A DNA stretch of 20,660 nt, taken from IMG/VR virus record IMGVR_UViG_3300048838_001036, positions 1 to 20,660 of that record; one strand, written 5' to 3'. A program made the translations under genes and the position numbers. Source of the stretch: a virus. This document shows positions 2,789 through 11,826 of the stretch, in pieces (the stretch's first letter is position 1; every line of letters starts with the position of its first letter). Below the pieces are notes generated by a model. That model was not told the DNA's origin. It searched no databases and saw only the letters and a program-made list of their open reading frames with translations.

Positions 2789-3553
2789 ATGTCGAGGATG
2801 TTTTTCATTCTGCTTTGCCTCCTGTTCCTGGCCTGCGCTCCGCAGGAAACTTCAACCCTCAACTATGCGACGTTCACCCCTGGCCGTGAGGTCATGAAGC
2901 AGTGGTCAGCCTACACGACCATTGAGCGCCGTGGCTGCACGCTGCCCATCCAGCTCTATGCATTCCCAGGCGCTGACGTTCCACCCGAGCAAGGCGCGTT
3001 CGTGCGGAGAGCCGTGGAGAGCGCCGTCAAAGCCTGGGCAAGCGCACCGGCATGGCCATGCACCGCAACGCGCGTTGTCTGGGCAGAGGCGGGCCCTGGC
3101 ACCGTGCAGGTCTACCTGGACCCAACGGTAACGAGGGCCTACACAATCGTCGGGCAGAATCAGGTCTACCTTTCACACGCCAACACCGTGCCCACGGACC
3201 CACTCGCGGAAAGGATTATCCTTCATGAGTTTGGACATATATTCGGACTTGCCGACACGTACTCTGAACCCGGTTATCAGCAGCCCTTGAATCAGCCGCC
3301 CGGAATCATGAACAGGCTATGGGAAGTGAATGGACTTTCCGGGGACGATATCCGCGGAGCCGCCGCCCTCTACGAATACATCAATGGACGCAGGCCCTTC
3401 TGTGACAACGGCTATGTGGTGGGAGCCGCCTATGAGAATGTCAATCGTGTGGCCTTCTGCGTGCCCACGTTTGGACCCAACCAGCCGCCTCCTGACTCCA
3501 CAATCAAAAGCCAGCATGGTATTATCCTGGTCAACCCACTGGAACCTAGCTGA
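2789..3553 (+). CDS. Lipoprotein zinc metalloprotease (metzincin)
   Basis: The 254-residue protein starts 5 bases after AAGGAG (2778-2783). A hydrophobic leader ends at a lipobox-like FLAC with C16 as the acylated residue; +2 is Ala, not Asp, which would direct it to the outer membrane in Gram-negative cells. The catalytic segment H146-E-F-G-H150-I-F-G153-L-A-D156 is the extended metzincin zinc site, followed by a Met-turn (PGIMN, M174) and a matrixin-like end helix (LSGDDIRGAAALYEY). Cys pairs (C50/C91 and two near the C-terminus) may form disulfides outside the cytoplasm. It is expected to cleave a protein at the cell surface; the substrate is unknown. A terminator follows at 3600. A phage structural role is unlikely given the lipid anchor. 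Confidence 0.85.
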   Translation: MSRMFFILLCLLFLACAPQETSTLNYATFTPGREVMKQWSAYTTIERRGCTLPIQLYAFPGADVPPEQGAFVRRAVESAVKAWASAPAWPCTATRVVWAEAGPGTVQVYLDPTVTRAYTIVGQNQVYLSHANTVPTDPLAERIILHEFGHIFGLADTYSEPGYQQPLNQPPGIMNRLWEVNGLSGDDIRGAAALYEYINGRRPFCDNGYVVGAAYENVNRVAFCVPTFGPNQPPPDSTIKSQHGIILVNPLEPS

Positions 3554-5729: not shown

Positions 5730-6074
5730 ATGCTCAAAATCATCGTGAGGTATTTCGTCATGGACTGGCTCGTCAACATGATCGTCAAGTGGATCCTGGA
5801 GCAGGTAAAGAACGGCACCATTGAGGCCATCGCTGATAAGGCGAAGGCCGTGGTCCTCCCCTGGCTGCGTGACCGCAAGGATGAACTCATTGCCCGCCTC
5901 AAGGAGGAAGCCCGGAAAACCGGAACGCCCATTGATGACGCCTTCGTGGACTGGATTGACATTTTCATTGAGGCCTGGATACCTGACAGCCCGGTGACAC
6001 TCGCCCAGGTTCCGCCGCTCCCTGAGAAATACTGTCAACCCGGTGACGCCGCCTGCCAAACGTCAATTGCATGA
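5730..6074 (+). CDS. Small amphipathic membrane-associated protein
   Basis: The ATG at 5730 has GAGGG (5717-5721) 8 bases upstream and is preferred to the ATG at 5709. The 114-residue product starts with a hydrophobic, aromatic-rich stretch (MLKIIVRYFVMDWLVNMIVKW), then alternating amphipathic helices with Lys/Glu/Arg faces and a Pro-rich C-terminus with two Cys (EKYCQPGDAACQ). It may sit on or in the inner membrane. It ends tail-to-tail with the short-chain dehydrogenase, overlapping its 3' end by 12 bases. No family is recognised. Confidence 0.6.
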   Translation: MLKIIVRYFVMDWLVNMIVKWILEQVKNGTIEAIADKAKAVVLPWLRDRKDELIARLKEEARKTGTPIDDAFVDWIDIFIEAWIPDSPVTLAQVPPLPEKYCQPGDAACQTSIA

Positions 6075-6653
6075 CACCCACGAAACACGCTCGACACGGC
6101 GGTCACTAAGAATCGCCACAATCTCCTGGGCCACCTGCCCGGGAGTCATGAGCGTCCTTTGATCCTCATCAGGAAAAAGACCCCGCCGCATCTTGGTTGC
6201 CGTTCGGCCGATGTTGAGACACCATGCGTCAACGCCCTCTGCAACAAGACATTGCACGAACATTACCAGCCCAGCCTTGGCCGCACAGTACGCGCTCCAG
6301 GTAGCCCTCGGCTTGCGAGCCGCGCTTGAGCCTATGAGGACCACCCGGCACCGGGCATTGCCCTGCAAGGCGGCGTGCGTGACATTGAATTGGCCCAGGA
6401 GGTTCACCTGGATCTGTCGGTGCCAGGAGGAAATTGATCCGCCCGTCACGGCTTCAGGACTGATGACCCCAGCAAATGAGATCAGGATGTCAGGTTTTTC
6501 CATGCTGATTCTGTGCATTCTCACCGGATCTGTCACGTCCAGATCCTTGCTTGTGAACGCCCGAACCGTACACCCATGAAGCAGCGGGGTGAGCTCACGG
6601 GCAATGTCACTGCCAGCGCCAACGATCACGACCTTAGCGGGACTCGATTTCAT
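6063..6653 (-). CDS. Short-chain dehydrogenase/reductase, probable polyol-phosphate-forming reductase
   Basis: The frame is open from 6770, but ATG at 6653 has GGAGG 6 bases upstream and gives 196 residues beginning at the first beta strand. The cofactor loop is VGAGSDIA (11-18), FAG (60-62) replaces NAG, and N84, S109/S110, Y122 and K126 (YCAAK) complete the SDR catalytic set. At 196 residues it is compact versus the usual 250. It overlaps the cytidylyltransferase gene by 20 bases. In Haemophilus Bcs1 an IspD-like domain is fused in this same order to an SDR that reduces ribulose-5-phosphate to ribitol-5-phosphate. By analogy this enzyme may make the polyol phosphate substrate; the actual substrate is not established. 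It is the last gene of the cassette. Confidence 0.85.
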   Translation of the reverse strand: MKSSPAKVVIVGAGSDIARELTPLLHGCTVRAFTSKDLDVTDPVRMHRISMEKPDILISFAGVISPEAVTGGSISSWHRQIQVNLLGQFNVTHAALQGNARCRVVLIGSSAARKPRATWSAYCAAKAGLVMFVQCLVAEGVDAWCLNIGRTATKMRRGLFPDEDQRTLMTPGQVAQEIVAILSDRRVERVSWVSCN

Positions 6654-7230
6654 GCAGGGCCTCCATGACCTCCCGATCGCTGCGCACCGTAAGCTTGTGC
6701 GCCGTTCGCCAGTCGCCAGGAAGCACTGCACAGCGGTCACGATATCGAATGCAGGCAAGGCTGAACTCATCGTTCACCCAGTTCTCGCAGTCCTCATTCA
6801 TGAGCCTTCGCAGGAAGGCATGATTAAAGGCCTGTGGCGTATGAATCTCATAGGATGCGTGGCGGACGATTGGCTGATTCAGGTGGAAGTTATAAACGGA
6901 ATTGACCAAGGGAACACCGTATGCAACGGCGTCCGCCTCGGCCTTCAATATGGCTAAGAATTGGCTTGTGCTCACGAGGAACCTTGCACCTTCAGCAATG
7001 ATAACACGCTCCACCTCATCAGGAAGCGTGGCCAATCCAGCAAGCACGGTTTCACGCCTTGTCACCCCACCCGGCACGTCAACGCCCATGACCGTGATGC
7101 CGTCCACCACCATGGAAAGCCTGTCCCTGACTATCTCCCAAGGCCGCTGGCCCTCAATGAAGATCTGCATTTTATCCGTTCCAAAGCGTTCGCCGCGTCC
7201 AGCGGCCAGGATCAAGGCGTGCGTTTTCAT
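6634..7230 (-). CDS. IspD/TarI-like cytidylyltransferase
   Basis: The 198-residue protein carries the family motifs in order: LAAGRGERFGTDK (8-20, with R15 and K20), GGVTRRETVLAGL (54-66), EGAR (80-83, equivalent to the DAAR of IspD), TPQAF (131-135), NDEFS (153-157) and HKLTVRSD (178-185, K179). These correspond to the CTP-binding and catalytic residues of IspD (MEP cytidylyltransferase) and TarI/Bcs1 (ribitol-5-phosphate cytidylyltransferase). It is about 30-40 residues shorter than IspD, mostly lost between the first motif and GG. Overlaps with a TagF-type transferase (4 bases) and an SDR (20 bases) favour CDP-polyol synthesis over isoprenoid synthesis. It is cytoplasmic. Confidence 0.88.
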   Translation of the reverse strand: MKTHALILAAGRGERFGTDKMQIFIEGQRPWEIVRDRLSMVVDGITVMGVDVPGGVTRRETVLAGLATLPDEVERVIIAEGARFLVSTSQFLAILKAEADAVAYGVPLVNSVYNFHLNQPIVRHASYEIHTPQAFNHAFLRRLMNEDCENWVNDEFSLACIRYRDRCAVLPGDWRTAHKLTVRSDREVMEALHEIESR

Positions 7231-8198
7231 ACGAACAGCTCCCTGATTTTAGTCACGATTTCCGTGCAGTCGTCCTTGATAAAGAGGTTGGGATAGCTCC
7301 CAGGTTGAAACTTCAACTTCGCCAGCTTGATGGTGTTGGCAAGGTTCCTGTCAGGCGGAACGTGGAAAAGATGCTGCGACAGATGCCGGAAATCCTTGGG
7401 AAGATCACGCCCGCCGTTTGGCCCTCCGCGAAGTATGACAATGGGTCTGTCCATTAAGGTGTACTCGCACACCACGGAGCTAAAGTCAGAAATGAGACAA
7501 CTGCTTCGCTTGAACAATTCGTCATAGTTGAAGTACAGCGGGTTGTCTGGCGTTATCAACTCCACGTTTTTATGAGTCCGCCAGAGGCTGCGCAGGCTGT
7601 TCATGAAAGGCTCGGTGCGCTGGTTGATTGGATGCAGCTTGATCATCACCCGCTGGCTGAGCGAGCATACAAGCTCAATGTTGGCTCTCAGGTTGGCGAG
7701 GCCGCTGTCTCTGTGCGTTGGCATGTAAAGCACGGGCCCGCTTTGGTCCCACGGTGGAAGGTCACGATACAGGCTCTCACGGGCAAAGGTCACGCGATGG
7801 ATCTTGTGCGCGTGCTCAGCGTATCGCTGCACGTAAGGCTTCCAGAAATGCTCACCCTGAACCAGGACATGCTCCCAACGCGCAGGGCTCCAGTTGGCGA
7901 GATCAGGCCCTTTGAATGACACGCCGTGAAATATCTGGATCGTGTTGAGCCCGCGAGGATCACCGGCAATCTTTTGATAACAGATCAACACGTTTTTGAT
8001 CTTGCGGGCCCTTATCCCTGACCAAACATGCTCGTCACGCAGGCCATGCACCGCCTCAAGGCCCAGCACGTCGCGGGCATAGATAGCCGTCTCCTTAAGC
8101 GGCGTGAAGATAACCGGCTTGATCTCAGGCATCGCCCGAATCAAGGGCAGGAAATGAGCTATGTATCCATGACTGTTGGCAACGAACGCGACTTCCAT
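7227..8198 (-). CDS. CDP-glycerol/CDP-ribitol phosphotransferase (TagF/TarL family)
   Basis: The 323-residue protein shows the signature motifs of the CDP-glycerol:poly(glycerophosphate) transferase family. These are FHGVSFKG (90-97, with the conserved HG), YMPTHRDSG (158-166), KLHP (187-190), and ISDFSSVVCEYTLMDRP (236-252), the hallmark ISDYSS...RP segment. The two conserved His (H91, H189) match the catalytic histidines of TagF. It lacks the extra N-terminal region of long TagF polymerases, so it resembles single-domain priming or capsule transferases. It would use a CDP-polyol, probably from the adjacent cytidylyltransferase, to add polyol-phosphate to a lipid-linked glycan, LPS, capsule or virion protein at the inner face of the membrane. 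The acceptor is unknown. Confidence 0.88.
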   Translation of the reverse strand: MEVAFVANSHGYIAHFLPLIRAMPEIKPVIFTPLKETAIYARDVLGLEAVHGLRDEHVWSGIRARKIKNVLICYQKIAGDPRGLNTIQIFHGVSFKGPDLANWSPARWEHVLVQGEHFWKPYVQRYAEHAHKIHRVTFARESLYRDLPPWDQSGPVLYMPTHRDSGLANLRANIELVCSLSQRVMIKLHPINQRTEPFMNSLRSLWRTHKNVELITPDNPLYFNYDELFKRSSCLISDFSSVVCEYTLMDRPIVILRGGPNGGRDLPKDFRHLSQHLFHVPPDRNLANTIKLAKLKFQPGSYPNLFIKDDCTEIVTKIRELFV

Positions 8199-8212: not shown

Positions 8213-8644
8213 TTAAGCTTCTCCAAACGCACAGAAGATCAGTTGACGTGGACGGTCGTCGTCCAGCTCAAACACCATGACCCTCTGCCATTTTCCTAAC
8301 TGCAGAATGCCATCAATCATGGGCACCGTAACACTGGAATCCATGAGCAGGCTCTTGATATGGCTGTGCCCGTTGATCGGCTCGTCCATGGGCACGTTCC
8401 GGCAATGGATGTCATCGTGGAGGTAGCTGGCATCCTTCGGCGCGAACTTCTCAAGAGCGTTCTTCGTGTCCTTGAGCAAAAGAGCCTCATTCTCAAAGAC
8501 CTTGATGCCAAGGGTCGTATGCAGGGAACTCACGCATACCAACCCATTGCGCAGGCCCGTTCCCGTGAGCCAGTCGCGGAGCTGTTGCGTTATGTCGATG
8601 ATCTTTTTGCGCGTGTCCAGGCTTACGACAGTCTGTGCGAACAT
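8213..8644 (-). CDS. yjbQ: YjbQ/UPF0047 family protein
   Basis: A strong G-rich ribosome-binding site (8649-8656) sits before ATG 8644, giving 143 residues, the normal family length. Family motifs are complete: SSLHTTLGIKVFENE (39-53), HDDI (76-79), N91-G-H-S-H95, VPMIDGILQLGKWQ (107-120) and RPR (131-133). The conserved His/Asn residues line the metal-binding pocket of the trimeric fold. Members have been linked to weak thiamine-phosphate synthase activity, but the physiological role is unsettled. It is the first gene of the leftward cassette, 14 bases before the phosphotransferase, which suggests a shared role with polyol-phosphate metabolism that is not documented to my knowledge. Confidence 0.92.
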   Translation of the reverse strand: MFAQTVVSLDTRKKIIDITQQLRDWLTGTGLRNGLVCVSSLHTTLGIKVFENEALLLKDTKNALEKFAPKDASYLHDDIHCRNVPMDEPINGHSHIKSLLMDSSVTVPMIDGILQLGKWQRVMVFELDDDRPRQLIFCAFGEA

Positions 8645-8750: not shown

Positions 8751-9101
8751 CTACGTCGCAGCCAGCCTCTCGATTACGTCCAGGCTTTCAGGGAATCTGG
8801 CTACATGCGTGGTCGCAGGCGTGGTGATCTCCAGTTCCCAGGTAAGGCGCTCGCCCGCGCGTAGGTTCTCGGAATTGGCTGAATCAATAATGACATCAAC
8901 CTGACCACGGCTGGCATCGCCAACGATCTCAATTTCATCAGCAGCCAGCGTCAACTCAAGAAGGTTTTCACTGTCTCCCTGCTTTTGAAACAAAGCCTTG
9001 ATAGTCAAGGCGCTTGAAAGGTCATACGGCGCACCGTTGGAGGTCCGCAGGCTTACCCGCACCGTTCGATCGGTGCCCTTGATCACTCGTAATACTTCCA
9101 T
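8751..9101 (-). CDS. Small tail-fibre-associated beta-sandwich-like protein
   Basis: ATG 9101 follows GGAGGG at 5-base spacing and is preferred to ATGs at 9122 and 9113, giving 116 residues. The sequence alternates hydrophobic and polar residues as a beta-rich domain: a short N-terminal strand (EVLRVIKGTDRTVRVSLR), a GAPYDLSS turn, then strands ending in LTWELEITTP. This arrangement (ligand-independent strand, PYDL, later WELE) resembles the N-terminal domains of baseplate upper proteins in other phages, a weak likeness. It is the last tail gene, directly before the terminator. Confidence 0.6.
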   Translation of the reverse strand: MEVLRVIKGTDRTVRVSLRTSNGAPYDLSSALTIKALFQKQGDSENLLELTLAADEIEIVGDASRGQVDVIIDSANSENLRAGERLTWELEITTPATTHVARFPESLDVIERLAAT

Positions 9102-9112
9102 GGAACCCTCCA

Positions 9113-9484
9113 TTAGCTGCACACCTCCACCACGCCGATCAATTCGTCCGTGGTATCCACCTCACCTATGATCTCCCCGGTGCCAGCGCCACCGCCGCCA
9201 CCGTCATCACGCAGGAACAATTCGTAAGCCTTGCGAATCAGCGTGGTGCCGTCAGATTCATAGACGGAGTAAACCACGTCCACCGCTGGCACGTCAGGCA
9301 TCTCCACGGCGTTGTTCTCGTACTCGCCCTCAGAGTATTCGATGAAGTCCAATGCAGCCGCTTCAGCGTGAACCGTGAATGGATCGCGTGAAGTCACCCG
9401 CGCGTAGATTACCAAGTCCTCCGAGCCGTCGTCGATCGCCACCCAAAGGGGAATGACTGACCCAGCTTTCACCTGCATTGACAT
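9113..9484 (-). CDS. Small virion-associated protein with Gly-rich linker
   Basis: ATG 9484 has GGGGGA upstream and gives 123 residues; the frame is open further but without a comparable site. Residues 1-90 look like a beta-rich domain, followed by DDGGGGGAGTG, a flexible linker, and a short acidic C-terminal strand pair (GEIIGEVDTTDELIGVVEV). It sits between the large fibre gene and the small beta-sandwich gene, with 16 and 11 base gaps. A linker between two beta elements suits a fibre adaptor or chaperone. No family is recognised. Confidence 0.55.
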   Translation of the reverse strand: MSMQVKAGSVIPLWVAIDDGSEDLVIYARVTSRDPFTVHAEAAALDFIEYSEGEYENNAVEMPDVPAVDVVYSVYESDGTTLIRKAYELFLRDDGGGGGAGTGEIIGEVDTTDELIGVVEVCS

Positions 9485-9500
9485 TACAATCCCCCAAAGG

Positions 9501-11315
9501 TTAAGTGTTGCCAGCTTGAATCTTTGACACGAGAAGGATGTCAGAGCCAACCTGTGTAAACTCCAGCATCGTCAGCTTATCGCTTTCAAGCGTAACGGTA
9601 TTCGATGATCCCATGTTGAATATGCTGGTTGGGAATGTGATCACTGGATCAGCGCCGCCACCGGATTTCTTTAGGAACACGCGGATTGTCTTGCCTTCCG
9701 CTGCGTTGCTAAAGGTGACTGTCCTGTCAGCGGTTATGGCAAGAGACTTGTGGACTGCTTTGTTCCAGTCAATCGTCGTACCAGCGGCTAAATCAGTTAC
9801 AACCTCCTCATGGCTGTATCTGTATTCCATTGTGGTTTCATAGATCCCGCTCGTTAGAGACTGTGAAGCAACCCGCAATTCCTGACCAACCCCAGGCGTT
9901 GCATTCGGCATGATCAACCTGATTTTCGTCGTCATGCCCGTGCCAGCTCTAAACCCTATAGCGTTTGATTGAGCGCCGGAGTTGGTTGTCTGAAACCAGA
10001 CGGTATTCTCTTCATTGACTGTCGTTCCATCAGGCGTGAAATTAACGTACCGCCCTATGTAGAGGCTGGCCCGTGTCTTTGATATCTTGAACCACCACGC
10101 ATACGGCTGCGAGGTGAAAAGGTTTGAAAAGTTCGCCGGTGATCCTGCAACAATTGAATTCTGTTCCTCAAGACGACCACGGTTACTTCCCGGCAGCACT
10201 GTACAGCCAGAAACGCTATTCAAGTCGATGTTCTGCGCAGTAAACATAACTGTGCTTGATGCGCTTGATCCGGCAACGATACCTTGAATGCATCCAAACA
10301 GGTAATTGCCGTTACCGCCAGTTATGGTGTTATTATCACCACCCATAATAAAATTGCGTTGGCCGCCTTCTATTTTGTTCGTGCGGCCTCCCATCACTCC
10401 TGATTCTGAAGTGGAACCGCCGATCCTATGCTCATACCCGCCTATCATGAAATTCAACGCAGCCGTCCCATAGAAAGGAGCTGCCGGGTTGGTTCGACTC
10501 AAAGTTAAATCGACATTTCCATCAGGCGGCGGGGTTGAATAGCGGCCATCGTCGATATAAATACTTTTGAGATAAAATGACCCGTCAGCAGGTCGAAGTC
10601 GAAGACCCGCAGATCCGCTGAATACGTAATCATTATCAAACCAATCATAGTCACCATCAGCATTTGAGGTCTTGGCAAGCACCTGCCTTGTGGTGCCACC
10701 ATCAGGACCAGTTGCATCAGTTCCATTTGCTCCTGCAGGACCTTGTGGACCCGTCGAGCCTGCCTCTCCTGGATCGCCTTGCGGGCCCTTGAGATTAAAG
10801 ATCGGTGTATCTGGATAACCAGCCCAGCCGTTATCAGTGGAATACTGGAACACGTCTCCGTTGGCGACGACCACGAAGAGATCACCGTCAAGCGCAACGG
10901 CAACATCAGTGTTTGGATCAGTTCCAAAATACCACTTGGCCGGTGAGATGCGGCCTATCCCTTCAAAGCCTGCCTCTCCTAAATAGATCTGCAGGAAGCC
11001 CACGTCATCATAGATAACATCCCCTGGCACGAGATCAGCGGGCTCTGTGCCGGACGCATACCAGCGGCTGCCCTTCACATGAATCGTGGTGTTGACCCAC
11101 TGTGAGCCGTCATACTGATAAAGCAAGCCGTTGGTTTCCAGAATGAAAAGATCACCGGCCAATGCTCCAGTCACTTCCTCAGGATCAGCACCCAATTGAA
11201 TGGTGCTCCCGCGCTCTCCAGGCTCCCCTGCAGCGCCAGCCGCACCAGCGGGTCCCTGTGGCCCTTGCGGGCCAGGAGGGCCCTGATTCTCGCCGCCGAT
11301 AACGATAAGACCCAT
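9501..11315 (-). CDS. Large collagen-like tail fibre / receptor-binding protein
   Basis: ATG 11315 follows GGGGG and lies one base past the lytic enzyme's stop, giving 604 residues. Collagen-like Gly-X-Y tracts lie at residues 12-36 and 177-198. Between them (37-176) are three tandem modules of about 45 residues with the pattern GDLF...NG..YQY. Residues 284-345 carry Gly-Gly/Asn repeats (IGGYEHRIGG, VMGGRTNKIEGG, MGGDNNTITGG) typical of the beta-roll head of trimeric adhesins and fibres. The C-terminal 90 residues contain a short beta domain (TVTFSNAAEGKTIRVFLKK). No peptidase S74 chaperone is visible. Trimerisation and receptor binding are expected. Local base composition at about 9.9-10.5 kb is more AT-rich than its neighbours, suggesting an exchanged module. 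Confidence 0.85.
   Translation of the reverse strand: MGLIVIGGENQGPPGPQGPQGPAGAAGAAGEPGERGSTIQLGADPEEVTGALAGDLFILETNGLLYQYDGSQWVNTTIHVKGSRWYASGTEPADLVPGDVIYDDVGFLQIYLGEAGFEGIGRISPAKWYFGTDPNTDVAVALDGDLFVVVANGDVFQYSTDNGWAGYPDTPIFNLKGPQGDPGEAGSTGPQGPAGANGTDATGPDGGTTRQVLAKTSNADGDYDWFDNDYVFSGSAGLRLRPADGSFYLKSIYIDDGRYSTPPPDGNVDLTLSRTNPAAPFYGTAALNFMIGGYEHRIGGSTSESGVMGGRTNKIEGGQRNFIMGGDNNTITGGNGNYLFGCIQGIVAGSSASSTVMFTAQNIDLNSVSGCTVLPGSNRGRLEEQNSIVAGSPANFSNLFTSQPYAWWFKISKTRASLYIGRYVNFTPDGTTVNEENTVWFQTTNSGAQSNAIGFRAGTGMTTKIRLIMPNATPGVGQELRVASQSLTSGIYETTMEYRYSHEEVVTDLAAGTTIDWNKAVHKSLAITADRTVTFSNAAEGKTIRVFLKKSGGGADPVITFPTSIFNMGSSNTVTLESDKLTMLEFTQVGSDILLVSKIQAGNT
10788..11207 (-). repeat. Three tandem protein repeats in the fibre, flanked by collagen tracts
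   Basis: At the protein level, residues 37-81, 82-125 and 126-176 of the fibre each contain a GD-hydrophobic strand, a short turn and a Y/F-rich strand (GDLFILETNGLLYQY; GDVIYDDVGFLQIYL; GDLFVVVANGDVFQY). Copies 1 and 3 are clearest; copy 2 is diverged. DNA identity between copies is low, so the repeat is old. Collagen-like tracts border it on both sides. Confidence 0.55.
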
Positions 11316-11316
11316 A

Positions 11317-11826
11317 TCAACCAACCCCCGTAAAGAAATTCCAATCAACCTTGCTCATGTTGTGCATCTCAGCTTTGACCTTTTGCACGTAATCCACGTT
11401 GGAGCATTGCGTGTCCTTGCAGCTCTTGATGTTGCCCATGTTGTACGCCGCAAGGGCTCTTGCCTGATTGCCGTTGTACTTCTCAAGCAGATGGTTCACG
11501 TAAAGCTCGCAGAAGCGCACGTTGACTTCAGGATCAAGCAGGCCTGTCAGCGGCCCGTGATACCCTAGCCAACGCGCTGTCCCACCCATGATCTGGCCCA
11601 ACCCCCAGCTATGCTTCTGCAGGACTTCCTCTGTGGCGGCGGTAATGCCGAGTTGCTTGGCGTTCTCACGCACGTTCCACACATAGATAAAGTCCTTCTC
11701 ATAGCGCACGGCATTGGGGTCCAGGCTGGACTCCACGCGAAAGATGGCCATAAGAAGCGGGTTCCTCGTGGGAACCTCACTTGGCGAAAGCACACGGCGA
11801 ACATAAGGCCAGTCAATGAGTGTCAC
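11317..11826 (-). CDS. Lytic transglycosylase, probable endolysin
   Basis: The start is GTG 11826, 2 bases after the stop of the small TM gene, giving 169 residues. The SLT-fold set is present: E32 in VESSLDPNAV (catalytic acid), SWGLGQIM (73-80) and LAAYNMG (125-131). No signal peptide or TM is seen, so export to the periplasm would need a holin. It cleaves the MurNAc-GlcNAc bond of peptidoglycan. Position after a 35-residue TM protein suggests a lysis pair, but its location among fibre genes also allows a virion-associated wall-degrading role. Confidence 0.85.
   Translation of the reverse strand: MTLIDWPYVRRVLSPSEVPTRNPLLMAIFRVESSLDPNAVRYEKDFIYVWNVRENAKQLGITAATEEVLQKHSWGLGQIMGGTARWLGYHGPLTGLLDPEVNVRFCELYVNHLLEKYNGNQARALAAYNMGNIKSCKDTQCSNVDYVQKVKAEMHNMSKVDWNFFTGVG

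Follow-up and report, generated by a model that had tools for sequence, protein, structure and literature searches.

A putative polyol-phosphate cassette of phages with a YjbQ partner

CDP-ribitol pathways of the TarI/TarJ/TarL and Bcs1 types combine a reductase, a cytidylyltransferase and a TagF/TarL-type transferase; TarI is full-length, TarJ is from a dehydrogenase family other than the SDRs, Bcs1 is a fusion, and YjbQ is not known to take part in these pathways. In phages, only parts of such a set have been described, in both cases in phages with hypermodified DNA. Yersinia phages YerA41 and vB_Yru_GN1 encode a cytidylyltransferase-SDR fusion (YerA41_151) next to sugar-transferase-like genes, and the DNA of YerA41 carries a thymidine substitution of roughly 1 kDa (PMC9023294). 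Bacillus phage SP-15 carries a TagF-type gene (gene 151) in a sugar-activation cluster, which contains a uridylyltransferase and a UDP-glucose dehydrogenase instead of a cytidylyltransferase and an SDR; the TagF-type gene has been proposed to serve the base modification of this phage, a phosphoglucuronate base, and no YjbQ is reported there in the text consulted (PMC5977210).

Here, we analyzed a stretch of 20,660 bp (hereafter, the window), the IMG/VR virus record IMGVR_UViG_3300048838_001036 of an uncultivated myophage, in which an initial annotation made from the sequence alone had pointed to three overlapping genes with intact motifs for an SDR, an IspD/TarI-type cytidylyltransferase (CTase) and a CDP-glycerol-type phosphotransferase (GPT). 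This observation is confirmed. The accompanying interpretation, namely CDP-polyol synthesis followed by transfer of polyol phosphate to host LPS or capsule or to virion proteins, is partly supported: the enzyme families, the conserved catalytic residues and the inferred pathway hold up, whereas neither ribulose-5-phosphate as the substrate nor any of the proposed acceptors has been shown. The initial annotation also missed a fourth gene, the compact form of the CTase, the partial phage precedents, and DNA hypermodification as an alternative role.

Gene content of the cassette

The cassette lies at the end of a minus-strand late operon that runs from the tail tape measure gene through genes for Dit-like, hub and baseplate J proteins to a collagen-repeat tail fibre gene (9501-11348, minus strand) with PHROG tail fibre hits and Gly-X-Y runs. 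Between the fibre gene and the cassette are two genes for small conserved late proteins, 9113-9550 (minus; 69% identical in the sister phage G010) and 8751-9122 (minus; phrog_1084, of unknown function, 51% identical in sister phages). These are followed by four tightly packed minus-strand genes, YjbQ/UPF0047 (8213-8644), GPT (7227-8198), CTase (6634-7230) and SDR (6063-6653). The CTase gene overlaps the end of the GPT gene by 4 nt and the SDR gene by 20 nt, and YjbQ lies 14 nt upstream of the GPT gene, which suggests a single transcript, probably produced late together with the tail genes. Plus-strand genes converge on the cassette from the other side. The plus-strand gene 2789-3553 encodes a lipoprotein-like protein resembling a zinc metalloprotease (HEFGHIFG motif), with only sub-threshold Pfam peptidase hits.

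The 323-aa GPT matched PF04464 (1e-11), the 198-aa CTase matched PF01128 (1e-13) and the SDR matched PF00106 (9e-18), all above the gathering cut-offs. In the GPT, H91, H189 and D238/S240/S241 (the SDFSS motif) are invariant in 6 homologues, so that both conserved His residues and the D-x-S-S motif of the family are present, and a profile of six cassette GPTs retrieved TagF (9e-16), TarL (8e-15) and the capsule polymerase Cps3D (1e-10) among solved structures. The SDR open reading frame formally starts at 6770, but homologues begin at the ATG at 6653, giving a protein of 196 aa in which the residues named in the initial annotation, N84, S109, Y122 and K126, form the full catalytic N-S-Y-K set and are invariant in 8 homologues. 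AlphaFold predictions from single sequences reached pLDDT values of only 38-42 and were discarded.

The CTase is a member of the IspD superfamily. Its R15, K20, R123 and K179 align with the catalytic residues R20, K27, R157 and K213 of E. coli IspD, but the Asp of the IspD HDAxRP motif (HDAAR, D106) is replaced by Glu (AEGAR). Glu is also found in the cassette CTases of the loci L117, L134, L005 and L151 and in YerA41, whereas L124 has Asp. Furthermore, the protein is about 28 residues shorter than IspD, the missing residues falling into two segments of the N-terminal half. This compact form is shared by the cassette CTases of L005, L124, L151, L117 and L134, and is thus a subfamily trait rather than decay; the CTase domain of YerA41 is full-length. 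The window CTase scored 69.8 bits against the cut-off of 181.3 for the curated IspD model TIGR00453 and had no hit to the ribitol-5-phosphate model NF001183, whereas the CTases of L005, L124 and L151 hit both models weakly, IspD better. It therefore belongs to a separate compact subfamily, neither proven IspD nor proven TarI, and its sequence does not identify the polyol.

The fourth gene encodes a protein of 143 aa, counted from the ATG at 8644, that belongs to the YjbQ/UPF0047 family (PF01894, 2e-29; TIGR00149, 84.6 bits against a cut-off of 67.75) and retains the invariant HTT, HD, NG and SH motif residues.

Conservation and exchange of parts

To find related cassettes, we scanned IMG/VR. 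Scans with the single proteins P0003 (the GPT) and P0002, with the YerA41 fusion and with a two-sequence CTase alignment found no cassettes, but an SDR alignment and a DNA pattern for the SDR motif were successful, the latter finding seven true cassette contigs. Another match of this pattern, L120, is a false positive without any cassette homologue, and a further candidate, L003, is an ordinary bacterial IspD contig. Thus, co-occurrence in other phages, which had been set beforehand as a test of the cassette, was observed. Four of the contigs (G009-G012) are relatives of the window phage and have the same four genes in the same order within a late region of conserved order; their tail proteins are 41-76% and their cassette proteins 47-65% identical to those of the window. 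Between G009 and G010, dN/dS was 0.035 for GPT, 0.069 for YjbQ, 0.092 for SDR and 0.20 for CTase, against 0.054 for baseplate J, although the CTase value is affected by the overlap with the SDR gene, and the comparison of the window with these contigs is near saturation at synonymous sites. The conservation in other contigs and the purifying selection exclude a chance arrangement. A 192-aa protein encoded among the tail genes of G010 (39699-40277) looks by eye like a glycosyltransferase (DVDW), but has no Pfam hit and is absent from the window.

In the three other contigs, which come from unrelated phages, the set is reassembled. G015 (locus L005) has LicD, CTase, SDR and YjbQ; this phage also encodes GroES- and GroEL-like proteins (L005:288-2351), GroEL appearing split into two reading frames (733-2013 and 1983-2351). 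G014 has two GPTs, CTase, SDR and YjbQ directly after a fibre-like gene, next to which lies a gene for a 2OG-Fe(II) oxygenase (L139:14631-15305), conceivably a hydroxylase for the fibre. G013 has LicD, SDR, YjbQ, a LicD-glycosyltransferase fusion and, in place of the CTase, a 139-aa CTP_transf_like protein that scored best with the HldE-type model and next with the TagD-type one; these genes belong to a glycan-assembly-like cluster (L140:7518-14523) with two sulfotransferase-like genes, two LicD domains and glycosyltransferases. LicD-like domains are related to FKRP, which uses CDP-ribitol (PMC11666461), although the direct hit was weak. Thus, SDR and YjbQ are constant, whereas the transferase and, once, the nucleotidyltransferase change while the logic of the set stays, which is the strongest argument for the CDP-polyol reading.

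We also searched bacterial genomes for the cassette. Among 398 sampled genomes of one phylum there was one match, G267, the chromosome of which (locus L151) carries the same four families, with a 714-aa GPT that has an extra N-terminal region, a compact CTase, SDR and YjbQ, the latter being last instead of first. The genes lie beside an ABC-2 transporter pair and a glycosyltransferase, near a Bac_transf enzyme (an initiating sugar transferase) and a polysaccharide-synthesis dehydratase, that is, in an O-antigen-like locus. No further copy was found in additional, small samples of Bacteroidota or of the class and genus of G267. The four-gene combination was likewise not found in the annotated phage collection or in the papers searched, although the TagF-type and CTase-SDR components each have a described phage precedent. 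YerA41 has the CTase and SDR domains in the same order as the cassette but no YjbQ, and its two transferases show no sequence similarity to the GPT.

The YjbQ partner

The link to YjbQ is the most novel element of the cassette, because it makes the function of this family testable. All the cassette contigs, which were found through the SDR motif and not through YjbQ, carry YjbQ beside the SDR or the rest of the cassette, in two gene orders. The cassette YjbQs, including that of G267, form a single clade (support 100/97) against 27 other YjbQs; G267 has a second, ordinary YjbQ elsewhere. YjbQ is common in bacteria (43 of 60 genomes), but the annotated phage collection gave only five weak hits, several of them on contigs that look bacterial. 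Divergent YjbQs in G032 and G040 lie in other neighbourhoods, and none of the other YjbQ loci examined, mostly with about 1.5 kb on each side, has a detectable CTase, SDR or GPT homologue of this set.

The function of the family is unsettled: NCBIfam names it after a secondary thiamine-phosphate synthase activity, and upon overexpression YjbQ restores PLP synthesis in an E. coli pdxB mutant by an unknown route suggested to feed in upstream of SerC (PMC7954711). No known reaction gives YjbQ an obvious place in the pathway, and no paper in the literature searched mentioned YjbQ together with cytidylyltransferase and polysaccharide. We infer, with low confidence, that it makes or edits the sugar phosphate used by the SDR. 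It is somewhat more likely than not that the distinct YjbQ clade is a dedicated enzyme of a CDP-polyol pathway that uses a compact CTase and is shared between phages and bacterial surface-glycan loci. If so, its reaction would give a pathway role to a family found in bacteria, archaea and eukaryotes.

Predicted pathway and its acceptor

We consider a phage-borne CDP-polyol cassette to be the best explanation, with a probability of about 0.72. In this view, the SDR would reduce a ketose- or aldose-phosphate to a polyol phosphate, the compact CTase would activate it with CTP to a CDP-polyol, the TagF-type enzyme would transfer polyol phosphate to an acceptor in the cytoplasm, and the dedicated YjbQ would supply or edit a phosphorylated intermediate of the same pathway. 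Our analysis establishes the gene content, the intact motifs, the conserved synteny, the purifying selection, the recurrence with a swapped transferase or nucleotidyltransferase and the bacterial copy in an O-antigen-like locus, whereas the reactions, including the use of a CDP-polyol donor, and the acceptor are inferred, the CDP-polyol and polyol-phosphate pathway being well supported by the gene composition. The Glu in place of IspD D106, the sub-threshold scores of the CTase and the absence of YjbQ from YerA41 weigh against this reading. On this evidence, phages of several lineages appear to carry a teichoic-acid-like activation and transfer pathway with exchangeable parts, and the functionally unsettled YjbQ family becomes tied to one pathway and thus to a concrete substrate class. 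If the acceptor is the host surface or the fibre, the cassette would be a new phage tool for controlling adsorption; if it is DNA, the cassette may help to explain the unsolved YerA41 modification.

The ranking of acceptors is a matter of judgement rather than measurement. A host surface glycan of LPS type appears the most likely, although less likely than not, given the bacterial locus and the ability of cytoplasmic enzymes to act on such glycans before export. Attachment of polyol phosphate, directly or on a glycan, to the tail fibre made from the same operon is less likely: the cassette follows a fibre gene in the window family and a fibre-like gene in the unrelated G014, the fibres carry Gly-X-Y runs, G014 has the 2OG-Fe(II) oxygenase next to the fibre, and the overlapping genes suggest co-expression with virion genes, but in G015 and YerA41 the genes lie among replication-type genes and not beside fibres, the bacterial copy sits in a surface-glycan locus, and TagF-type enzymes are not known to modify proteins.

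A phosphodiester-linked polyol on a modified base of phage DNA is unlikely, although the only described phages with parts of the set, YerA41 and SP-15, have hypermodified thymine. The YerA41 fragments differ by 184 m/z, the nominal mass of a tetritol-phosphate residue (C4H9O6P, 184.01 by our calculation), which the CTase-SDR fusion (L002:7995-9362) could help to make, other compositions being possible. No thymidylate-synthase-like gene was detected in the cassette contigs, but this carries no weight because YerA41 itself is negative in the same test. However, the sister phage G010 encodes ParB-like and DpdA-like (phrog_887) proteins together with QueC, QueD, QueE and FolE (L132:15040-18814), a probable 7-deazaguanine DNA modification set, so this family probably modifies guanine already, and the cassette sits in the late tail operon and recurs in a bacterial O-antigen-like locus. 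Decayed or passenger bacterial genes without function in the phage are very unlikely: the short CTase, its Asp to Glu change and the rarity of the set could be read in this way, but the same compact form is present in all cassette CTases of this type, the genes are under purifying selection, and synteny is kept across phages whose tail proteins are 41-76% identical.
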